Of a stretch of DNA of 64,000 nt, positions 17,949 to 20,675 are shown piece after piece. The notes beneath the pieces are model-generated. The model was not told the origin of the DNA. It made no database searches and worked only from the letters and a program-made list of their open reading frames with translations. Position 1 is the stretch's first letter. Every line of letters starts with the position of its first letter. This DNA is from Glutamicibacter soli (lineage in GTDB: Bacteria; Actinomycetota; Actinomycetes; Actinomycetales; Micrococcaceae). A program made the position numbers and the translations under genes. Location: NCBI RefSeq assembly GCF_003309065.1, contig NZ_POAF01000005.1, positions 62,001 through 126,000 on the forward strand, given 5' to 3'.

Positions 17949-18470
17949 TTAGGCTTCTGCCGGGGCTTCCTCGGCGGCAGCGCCACCGTTCTCTTCGAGC
18001 TTTGCACGCAGGGCGTCGACGACGCGGGCAGCAGCGGAAGCTGGAGCCTGCAGCACGGCAGCAACACGTGCCAGCTGAGTCTCGCGCGATTCCAGCGCAG
18101 CCAAGGCTGCGATGCCGGCCGTATCAAGTGCCTTGCCTTCGAACCAACCGGTCTTGATAACCAGCTTGTCGTTGGCCTTGGCGAACTCCGTGAGGCTCTT
18201 TGCGGCAGCAACTGCATCGCCCTTAATGAAGGCGATAGCGGTCGGACCGGAAAGCTGGTCATCGAATGCTTCGATGCCGGCTTCCTTCGCTGCGATAGCG
18301 GTCAAGGTATTCTTCACAACGGCGTACTTGGTCTCCTGACCAAGCGAGCGGCGCAGATCCTTGAGCTGTGCAACGGTAAGCCCACGGTATTCGGTCAAGA
18401 CAGCCGCAGACGAATCTTTGAAGTCAGCAGTGATCTCTTCAATCGCTGCAGTCTTGCTCGGGGTTGCCAT
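17949..18470 (-). CDS. rplJ: 50S ribosomal protein L10
   Basis: Stalk base protein (173 residues) that anchors L7/L12 dimers. Begins MATPSKTAAIEEI, contains the conserved TEYRGLTVAQLKDLRRSL segment and the Ala-rich C-terminal helix for L12. RBS GGAAGGAG precedes the ATG. Expression is probably autoregulated through its 178-base leader, which contains paired hairpins and a T-run hairpin. Confidence 0.98.
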   Translation of the reverse strand: MATPSKTAAIEEITADFKDSSAAVLTEYRGLTVAQLKDLRRSLGQETKYAVVKNTLTAIAAKEAGIEAFDDQLSGPTAIAFIKGDAVAAAKSLTEFAKANDKLVIKTGWFEGKALDTAGIAALAALESRETQLARVAAVLQAPASAAARVVDALRAKLEENGGAAAEEAPAEA

Positions 18471-18648
18471 AACACTCCTTCCGGGGATTTGTTCGGTACC
18501 GTTTCATAACCGGCGAGGCCATAAAAAAGGCCCCGCGCAGGAGCACAGGGCAGTTCAACTCATTCAAGTCAAATCAAATCTATGAAACCTGCGTTGGTCG
18601 TCCTTGCGGACCTTTAGGAGCATAAATGCTCAACCGACGGTCTTCGGT
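18471..18648 (-). promoter_or_regulatory. rplJ leader (L10-leader-like)
   Basis: 178-base untranslated leader. In transcription order it holds the hairpins GAGCAT-TT-ATGCTC and GGTCC-GCAA-GGAC, a conserved-looking GACGACCAACGCAGG stretch, then a terminator-like hairpin before the ribosome-binding site. In many bacteria the L10(L12)4 complex binds such a leader. The structural match is my own folding and not a covariance-model hit. Confidence 0.6.
18522..18551 (-). terminator. Attenuator hairpin in the rplJ leader
   Basis: On the minus strand GCCCTGTGC-TCCT-GCGCGGGGC folds into a 9-bp stem (two G-U pairs) immediately followed by CTTTTTTA. It lies about 50 bases before the rplJ start, in the position of a regulatory terminator. 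Confidence 0.7.
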
Positions 18649-18654
18649 ATTTCT

Positions 18655-18684
18655 ATTGTAGGCACGCATCACGCCCTCTTCCAA
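18655..18684 (-). promoter_or_regulatory. rplJL promoter
   Basis: TTGGAA (18684-18679), 18-base spacer, then the near-perfect -10 TACAAT (18660-18655). Start predicted near 18648. A perfect 8-bp hairpin GCGGTATC / GATACCGC sits just upstream (18692-18717). Confidence 0.75.
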
Positions 18685-18733
18685 ATTCAGCGGTATCGTC
18701 GAGGCGTGATACCGCCCACTTGAACCGCTGCTT

Positions 18734-18873
18734 AAAAAGACAAGGCCTGCATCTAGCACTTGGGGGACGCTAGATACAGGCTCCTTGTCGATGAGTAAGC
18801 TTTGGGGAAACTTACCCACCCAGCGCCTGCATAGTCTTGGGGGTCCCATGCAGACACCGCTGAATAAATCAGT
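18734..18873 (-). ncRNA. Putative small RNA with three C-rich-loop hairpins (6C-like)
   Basis: A compact transcription unit of about 140 bases between rplA and rplJ. Reading the minus strand: a small CTGA/TCAG hairpin; hairpin 1 (18853-18827) with stem CTGCAT/ATGCAG and loop GGGACCCCCAAGACT; hairpin 2 (18815-18795) with stem GTAAG/CTTAC plus TTT/AAA and a CCCC tetraloop; hairpin 3 (18789-18739), a stem of about 18 bp with loop GTCCCCCAAGT followed by TTTTTAAG, which doubles as terminator. The loops share C4-5 followed by AA. The actinobacterial 6C RNA is defined by two hairpins with C-runs in the loops, so this may be a divergent relative. It has no open frame. Confidence 0.65.
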
Positions 18874-18879
18874 GCTTCA

Positions 18880-18903
18880 ATGGTAGCATTTCTTGCCCAT
18901 GAC
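18880..18903 (-). promoter_or_regulatory. Promoter of the putative small RNA
   Basis: Extended -10 TGC-TACCAT (hexamer at 18885-18880) with a poor -35 TTCTGT 18 bases further up. Start predicted near 18873, just before the first hairpin. Confidence 0.5.
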
Positions 18904-19341
18904 ACAGAACCGTAAGCTGGCAAATTCCAATGAATTTCCCATGTTTTCGGGGGTTGACACTCCAAGATCCGCGAAATTACGGGGTTAAACGCATGATGAA
19001 AAAAATTGAACGCATTTGCATGTTTATGCGAGCGTGGCCGATTTTAGCGCTTTGAGGAGGGTTTCCAGCGTCCGCGTTCCTCTCGATTCCCCGCGTATCG
19101 CACTGCCCGGGAGGCTCATCACGAAAGTCCACTTCTGGATGCACCCACTCGGAGATTCATCCCAGGTCCGTGCCCTGTTGCGGGCGCATCTGGGTGAGGG
19201 TGCACTTGATTTGGCCGCCCATTTCCTGGCCGGCCCGACGCCTGGCTTCTCCCGCTCCCCTGGACCCACGGCGCCGGGGCAGCCCTGTTATCGACCTTGG
19301 GAGGTTGCTTGCACAACAGCGGATGCCCTCGGGGAATGCAA
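18886..19341. other. Gap between the small RNA and rplA
   Basis: About 450 bases without a recognisable gene. A plus-strand TTGACA (about 18954-18959) followed after 18 bases by TACGGG could start a transcript ending at the rplA terminator. Downstream, a 20-codon frame begins ATG ATG AAA AAA at 18993 and ends at 19055. A longer GC-driven frame (19016-19399) has no family-like sequence and runs through the terminator. I cannot support a protein. Confidence 0.4.
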
Positions 19342-19386
19342 AAGCCCGCGGGCACCATCACGATCAGTGATGGAGCCCGCGGGCTT
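19342..19386 (-). terminator. Bidirectional terminator after rplA
   Basis: Long stem AAGCCCGCGGGC-a-CCATCAC / GTGATGG-a-GCCCGCGGGCTT with loop GATCA, 17 bases after the rplA stop; AAAA/TTTA-like flanks on both sides. Confidence 0.85.
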
Positions 19387-19402
19387 AAATAAGCTCTAAA
19401 GC

Positions 19403-20104
19403 TTAGGCCTCAACGCGGGTTACGTTCGAGTCAACAGGGATGCCTGGACCGAAGGTGGTAGCGATGGTGGCCTTCGAGATGTAGCGGCCCTTCGAAGCCG
19501 AAGGCTTCAGACGCAGAACCTCATCCAGTGCAGCTGCGTAGTTCTCGGTCAGCTGCTTGGCATCGAACGAAGCCTTGCCAATGATGAAGTGCAGGTTCGA
19601 GTGCTTGTCGACGCGGAAGTCGATCTTGCCGCCCTTGATGTCGGTAACAGCCTTGGCCACATCCATGGTCACGGTGCCGGTCTTAGGGTTTGGCATCAGG
19701 TTACGTGGGCCGAGGATCTTACCCAGGCGGCCAACCTTGCCCATCAGGTCCGGGGTAGCAACCGCTGCGTCGAAGTCGGTCCAGCCGCCCTGGATCTTTT
19801 CGATCAGGTCGTCCGAGCCAACGAAGTCGGCGCCGGCTTCGCGGGCTGCCTCAGCCTTGTCACCGTTGGCGAAAACAACCACGCGGGCGGTCTTGCCGGT
19901 GCCGTGTGGCAGGTTCACGGTACCGCGAACCATCTGGTCGGCCTTGCGTGGGTCGACACCCAGGCGGAATGCAACCTCAACGGTCGAGTGGGTCTTGTCG
20001 CCAGCGATCTCCTTGGCCAGGGCGATTGCCTCGGCTGGAGCGTAGAACTTGTCAGCCTCGATCTTAGCCGCGGCGGCTACATATGCTTTGCTGCGCTTTG
20101 CCAT
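19403..20104 (-). CDS. rplA: 50S ribosomal protein L1
   Basis: 233 residues. Binds 23S rRNA at the L1 stalk and helps release E-site tRNA. Contains [15 protein letters not shown] at the N-terminus, the [18 protein letters not shown] segment, the interdomain [16 protein letters not shown] signature (about 125-140) and the second-domain [14 protein letters not shown] region. Follows rplK after a 139-base spacer, the usual place for L1 or L11 feedback; no clear hairpin there. Confidence 0.99.
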
Positions 20105-20243: not shown

Positions 20244-20675
20244 TTAGCCTTCTACGGTCACGCCCATGGAGCGAGCGGTGCCGGCGATGATCTTGGCTGC
20301 TGCAGCCAGATCGTTTGCGTTGAGGTCAGCCATCTTGGAGGTGGCGATTTCCTCAACCTGTGCCTGGGTCAGGTTTGCAACCTTGTTGGTGTGCGGAACA
20401 CCCGAGCCCTTGGCGATGCCGGCAGCCTTCTTGATCAGCTCAGCTGCAGGTGGGGTCTTAGTGATGAAAGTGAACGAACGGTCTTCGTACACGGTGATTT
20501 CAACTGGAATCACGTTACCGCGCTGCGACTCGGTGGCAGCGTTGTAAGCCTTGCAGAATTCCATGATGTTGACGCCGTGCTGGCCAAGTGCAGGACCGAT
20601 TGGAGGAGCTGGGTTAGCAGCACCTGCCTGGATCTGCAGCTTGATGAGTCCGGTGACCTTTTTCTTTGGGGCCAT
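20244..20675 (-). CDS. rplK: 50S ribosomal protein L11
   Basis: 143 residues, GTPase-centre protein required for factor binding and stringent-response sensing, target region of thiopeptides. Shows [21 protein letters not shown], the [13 protein letters not shown] helix and the C-terminal rRNA-binding domain ending [12 protein letters not shown]. First gene of the rplK-rplA pair, 127 bases downstream of nusG. Confidence 0.99.

Follow-up and report, generated by a model that had tools for sequence, protein, structure and literature searches.

A predicted small RNA with three C-rich loops between rplA and rplJ of Glutamicibacter soli, probably related to 6C RNA

A C-loop RNA unit of ~139 nt is predicted on the minus strand between rplA and rplJ, at about 18873-18735 of the window, the 64,000-nucleotide stretch of Glutamicibacter soli DNA analysed here. 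We consider it likely to be a 6C-type small RNA that stands alone and acts in trans, with three C-loop hairpins instead of two. Comparative sequence analysis established that the RNA is structured and conserved, that it has an extended -10 of its own which is conserved too, that paired changes maintain the stems, that CCCCAA is invariant in all three loops, and that four genera share the ancestral location upstream of rplJ. The bridge to 6C, established at the same level, is a same-place copy in a sister genus which passes the Rfam 6C model. 6C is thought to silence mRNAs with G-rich start regions.

Results

Layout of the locus and predicted fold

The features of the locus are as follows.

19403-20104, minus: rplA (L1), upstream neighbour, open reading frame with its own terminator-like hairpin 3' of the gene
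18880-18888, minus: extended -10 promoter element TGCTACCAT (TGNTANNNT), at the same offset in 16/16 congeners
18735-18873, minus: predicted small RNA, about 139 nt, from window sequence, fold and a match to covariance model R1
18860-18872, minus: 5' mini-hairpin CUGA-UUUAU-UCAG, 4 bp, arms 18872-18869 and 18863-18860
18821-18859, minus: hairpin 1 (H1), loop GACCCCCAAGA, arms 18859-18846 and 18834-18821
18790-18820, minus: hairpin 2 (H2), loop CCCCA in UUUCCCCAAAG, arms 18820-18808 and 18802-18790
18739-18789, minus: hairpin 3 (H3), loop region GUCCCCCAAGU, terminator-like by terminator scan match
18734-18738, minus: T-run TTTTT 3' of H3, window sequence
18655-18684, minus: separate promoter-like site TTGGAA-18-TACAAT downstream of the small RNA, a consensus match only
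18515-18665, minus: L10-leader-like element of rplJ, separate from the small RNA (RF00557)
17949-18470, minus: rplJ (L10), downstream neighbour, open reading frame

The frame at 17949-18470 was presumed to be rplJ from sequence knowledge and the adjoining L10 leader. RF00557 scored 31.4 bits (E 0.005) over 18515-18665, where the gathering score is 44, and this element is probably a diverged actinobacterial L10 leader. The rplA-rplJ gap measures 932 bases in the window versus 549 in the congener G016, and the spacer from the terminator-like hairpin of rplA to the small RNA (about 19020-19350) is long in the window. ARAGORN called a tRNA-Pro at 20299-20382 (+), antisense inside rplK; the Rfam tRNA model gave no match there, and the call is therefore probably false.

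The ends of the small RNA were placed from the positions of the -10 and the T-run. An earlier note on this DNA had proposed a stand-alone minus-strand unit of about 140 bases with an extended -10, and the sequence signals bear this out: TGNTANNNT is present in 16/16 congeners and occurs 13 times per 128,000 positions when both strands of the window are counted. No clear conservation of a -35 region was seen upstream of the RNA in the 16 congeners. Three consecutive hairpins with C-rich loops on unrelated stems, as described in that note, were confirmed in the window sequence. The loops of H1, H2 and H3 carry CCCCCAAG, CCCCAA and CCCCCAAG respectively, with the C-run of H3 at 18766-18762; the runs are 5, 4 and 5 C long, and 4 to 6 C across the 16 congeners. 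The fold of 18725-18890 has a minimum free energy of -75.4 kcal/mol; 200 shuffles averaged -49.2 (sd 4.3), which gives z -6.08, and none of them was as low.

In 860 kb of this genome (GC of the window, 62.9%), CCCC was found in 6 loops of 423 intergenic hairpins, and these six include H2 and H3 of the window RNA and one from locus L171; the survey demanded a stem of at least 11 pairs, and its criteria missed H1.

The absence of a protein frame, claimed earlier, holds for a conserved protein and fails as a literal statement. The mechanical ORF list contains one frame of 89 codons across the small RNA (18849-18580). The same ATG opens frames of 11 to 89 codons in 16 congeners; no conserved protein is thus encoded here, and the protein-coding reading of the locus was rejected.

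Conservation within the genus

BLAST with the window DNA found matches in 8 of 58 genomes, every one in the same genus, and covariance model R1 was built from these eight, thus from the genus alone. R1 matches 16 of the genus's 18 genomes. In each of the 16 the match is upstream of rplJ, and in 15 rplA lies on the opposite side within 1.5 kb. G005 and G010 gave no R1 match, and no match to a second model (R2, described below) even at E <= 0.1. Both retain rplA and rplJ with a shorter gap between them (365 and 357 bases), so the RNA behaves like a separate cassette which a genome may lack. Weak R1 matches from the family search in G058, G168 and G237 were treated as chance, since their folds show no C4 loops.

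Alignment A4 was made by MAFFT from the 16 congeners without structure, and the window's own fold served as the reference structure. In A4, 92.5% of cells are paired and 30 of the 52 pairs have a two-sided change; the covariation score was 0.554 versus 0.285 for shuffled and at most 0.155 for slid alignments. Two-sided changes were seen in 10/14 pairs of H1, 8/13 of H2 and 11/21 of H3 in these congeners. The mini-hairpin is paired in 100% of cells, with such a change in 1/4 pairs. A lack of compensatory changes in relatives had been named as what would speak against the RNA; the stems passed this test clearly, and the conserved secondary structure with two-sided changes is a feature expected of a new family of the Rfam type.

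The loops show the opposite behaviour. Pairwise identity of loop versus stem is 0.83 vs 0.57 in H1, 1.0 vs 0.56 in H2 and 0.93 vs 0.65 in H3, and CCCCAA is kept in 48/48 loops (three loops in 16 congeners). The 5' mini-loop, in contrast to the C-loops, has an identity of 0.34. The proposed selection on the loops is thus upheld. In the window the last hairpin is terminator-like, with a scan match and a T-run. Four or more consecutive T lie close 3' of H3 in 8/16 congeners; none is close in the other 8, which weakens the terminator reading for those 8.

Relatives in other genera and the relation to 6C

At gathering, no Rfam family, the 6C family RF01066 included, was found over the RNA locus. 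The earlier note had proposed RF01066 as a check, and over 18400-19420 it gave no match at E <= 10, the best match there being the L10 leader. The loci of two congeners gave no match at E <= 5, and a search of the genome that holds the window, in which 150 of 847 candidates were scored, gave none at E <= 10. As the window's copy does not reach the RF01066 cut-off (47 bits), it is not filed as a member. The host is actinobacterial, as for 6C (nearest named rplA, Paeniglutamicibacter antarcticus, 91%). 6C has two hairpins with about six or more C each, and the window RNA has three, with 5, 4 and 5 C. The copy falls short in both model score and loops, and is therefore reported as a 6C-like variant.

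Relatives in other genera supply the connection. Among 56 loci, R1 matches L043, the rplJ locus of G027 in genus g11, at 27.8 bits (E 1.3e-5), and L013, a 6C-like locus of G022 in genus g6, at 21.5 bits (E 6.6e-4). The G027 sequence matches a named Galactobacter caseinivorans record (R2 score 56.7, same loops), and g11 is therefore taken as what is apparently Galactobacter. RF01066 matched 15 of 197 family genomes (11 g6, 3 g11, 1 g10), 10 of them above the cut-off. In g11 the RNA lies between rplA and rplJ in 3/3 genomes and RF01066 accepts 2/3, with scores of 49.6 (G027), 50.0 (G101) and 45.1 bits (G078). A same-place relative of the window RNA in another genus is thus above the 6C cut-off in G027 and G101. 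The match in g11 spans H2 and H3, and the extra C-loop hairpin stands ahead of it. The g6 loci lie at other genomic positions; their folds, inspected by eye, likewise show, upstream of the 6C match, a third hairpin with a C-run.

R2 was built from 20 sequences, including L043 and L013. A covariance search over Micrococcaceae had also been suggested by the earlier note; across 295 family genomes R2 gave matches in 24, spread over 5 of the 32 genera. The matched genomes include two from outside the R2 training set: G219 (g44), with the RNA upstream of rplJ and rplA absent from the fetched flank, and G068 (g51), with the RNA between rplA and rplJ. The three-hairpin version is accordingly found upstream of rplJ in three further genera (g11, g44, g51). 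R2 also matches 10/10 further g6 6C loci at E <= 5e-4. In g6 and other relatives the fetched flanks of the related RNAs contain no rplA or rplJ. Alignment A5, from four genera and fitted to the R2 model, has a two-sided change in 47/50 pairs and a score of 0.770 versus 0.248 shuffled.

On canonical two-hairpin 6C loci R2 matched 0/4 at E <= 0.01; these four, from other families of the order, have two hairpins with 7 or 6 C. Under stricter filters, with which weak matches are lost, R2 gave 3 matches in 396 genomes of the order (two in the genus and L199 of G608, another family) and 1 match in 394 genomes of the class, the window's own genome. Our literature search, in which many subscription papers were beyond reach, returned no link of a 6C-like RNA to rplA-rplJ in Micrococcaceae.

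Taken together, the window RNA is probably homologous to 6C/B11, B11 being the mycobacterial 6C. The earlier choice between a divergent 6C and a new class is partly resolved towards 6C by the sister-genus RNA (RF01066, 2/3), but RF01066 leaves the window's own copy unmatched. A separate class of C-loop small RNA, independent of 6C, with convergent loops which would still pair with G-tracts, is unlikely. It would account for the blindness of RF01066 to the window's copy and for runs of 4-6 C followed by AA, as against 6 or more C in 6C, and C-loops have evolved in unrelated small RNAs too (sX13, and LhrC with UCCC motifs). However, the same place and three-hairpin layout recur in Galactobacter, where RF01066 accepts two of the three genomes, and both R1 and R2 link the genus with the 6C loci of g6.

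Further C-loop loci

In the window's genome R2 also matches C5:6214-6348 (93.1 bits), between aldo/keto reductase and alpha/beta hydrolase genes, where the C-runs are kept in loops 1 and 2, not in loop 3. Weak R2 matches were obtained at C19:476981 (28.9 bits, E 0.0023), C19:210782 (24.9 bits, E 0.018) and C22:110079 (23.6 bits, E 0.035), each with two hairpins with CCCCC[A/G]A loops. The genome thus has five such places: the window RNA on C21, one on C5, two on C19 and one on C22. Close conservation was seen only for C5 (L031) and C19:476981 (L172), both in the near relative G017. Paired C-motifs in the same genome gave 24 matches versus 23 for the backwards pattern, hence no overall excess. 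Of these, 20 of 24 loci were examined, four being dropped as overlaps of a listed place and L175 lacking a readable flank. At 3 places, the window RNA among them, two or more C-runs fall in hairpin loops.

Some congeners have other C-loop places; one member stands beside phage-like genes, and another family's (G608) has four C-loop hairpins. L087:1501-1626 (+), the second locus of G006, has three hairpins with loops AUCCCCCAAU, GUCCCCCAAG and AUCCCCCAAG, followed by a fourth, separate strong hairpin. L170:1501-1593 (-) and L032:1501-1627 (-), in the congeners G002 and G011, are two-hairpin C-loop RNAs with short flank stretches in common, and that of G002 adjoins proteins matching phage families phrog_32486 and phrog_4316. 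L171:1501-1581 (+) and L172 have two C-loop hairpins between PEP-utilizer-domain and short-chain dehydrogenase genes; the hairpins occupy most of the short intergenic gap and may represent a terminator or an element of a 5' UTR.

The window RNA had no match in phages and plasmids, and L170 had none in phages. In viral contigs the triple-CCCCCAAG pattern gave 106 stretches, 80 of which were made into loci. Places there with three or more C-runs in loops (13/153) were, by eye, tandem or coding-type repeats and were rejected.

The further members support, at modest odds, a class with several members. A larger Micrococcales class of repeated (U)CCCCCAAG-loop hairpins, of which 6C is only the two-hairpin, long-C-run corner and which forms a network of sibling RNAs, is a tentative proposal. 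If it is true, single genomes carry sibling RNAs which are unlinked, share their loops and have separate promoters.

Targets and possible mode of action

By analogy with 6C, pairing of the C-loops with G-rich ribosome-binding sites should be the mechanism of the window RNA. The RNA would be transcribed alone, and its rigid stems would expose the C-loops, allowing them to pair with G-rich sequence in or close to ribosome-binding sites and so block translation. The three loops may act redundantly, or on several mRNAs at once. In M. abscessus B11, either C-loop represses a reporter via G-tracts in the 5' UTR, and the RNA-RNA pairing is backed by compensatory mutations (PMC10470900). The three C-rich loops of Xanthomonas sX13 act on G-rich motifs near starts (PMC3771888).

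The target tests drew on 583 starts predicted from 860 kb, roughly one fifth of the genome, and their power is low (2 sites of UUGGGG). Near these starts UUGGGG was found 2 times versus 1 for the reversed motif; CUUGGG was found 3 times versus 3 and GGGGGA 4 versus 5. Duplexes of <= -14 kcal/mol for the H1/H2/H3 loops numbered 30/3/98 versus 29/2/89 with reversed loops at the 583 starts, and 60/5/99 on the opposite strand versus the 30/3/98 observed. The pairing with G-rich ribosome-binding sites proposed in the earlier note is thus not supported so far by enrichment of motif or duplex near the 583 starts. UUGGGG near a predicted start in L207 and L224, single sites, gives candidates only. If the window RNA pairs, it probably has few specific targets, not a broad regulon.

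CsrB-type RNAs are protein-binding decoys, and the window RNA might in like manner be bound by a protein which recognises the repeated CCCCCAAG loop. We regard this as improbable, more so than a separate class. The near identity of the three loops, although their stems differ, and the equally invariant flanking A-A would suit such a decoy, as would the lack of target enrichment at 583 starts. Against a decoy, we know of no protein of this sort for 6C. B11, moreover, is reported to pair directly with its target RNA, as supported by compensatory mutations (PMC10470900). A cis-acting leader or attenuator of rplJ-rplL is very improbable: the RNA is always upstream of rplJ within the genus, but it ends in a terminator-like hairpin which is followed by a second promoter-like site and the L10-leader-like element, related RNAs of g6 and other relatives have neither rplA nor rplJ in their fetched flanks, and in G005 and G010 both genes are present but the RNA is missing. 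Because other genera carry the RNA away from ribosomal genes, its place beside rplJ is read as a genomic address and not as a cis function.

Discussion

We thus favour a trans-acting small RNA of the 6C type. The model that defines the range of 6C was trained on two-hairpin RNAs with long C-runs, and a whole genus was missed. Since RF01066 misses a form with a third C-loop and shorter C-runs, this form offers a natural experiment on the numbers of C and of loops needed. The loss of the RNA in G005 and G010 provides natural null strains for comparison. In mycobacteria 6C has a reported job, repression by B11 (PMC10470900).

By analogy, the window RNA would work most like 6C (RF01066; B11 in mycobacteria). 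Both are actinobacterial small RNAs of about 100-140 nt, stand-alone by prediction in the case of the window RNA, with stable hairpins, C-rich apical loops and the last hairpin at the 3' end. The 6C address is next to an ssd-type gene. 6C has two hairpins with about six or more C per loop (PMC4046766), whereas the window RNA has three C-loop hairpins, and C-runs of 4-6 then AA instead of 6 or more C. The sX13 RNA of Xanthomonas also has three stable stems with apical C-rich loops (4C, 4C, 5C; PMC3771888); it comes from an unrelated bacterium and locus, and is likened here by architecture, with no sequence homology claimed. The LhrC family of Listeria is present in multiple copies within a genome; every copy offers three UCCC-bearing sites which are redundant and bind a G-rich site, and one of the three lies in the terminator loop (PMC4132741). 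Unlike the window RNA, LhrC belongs to a low-GC host and its loops are CU-rich rather than C-runs. The LhrC copies are also highly similar mutually, whereas the extra loci of the window type share their loops and hardly any stem sequence.
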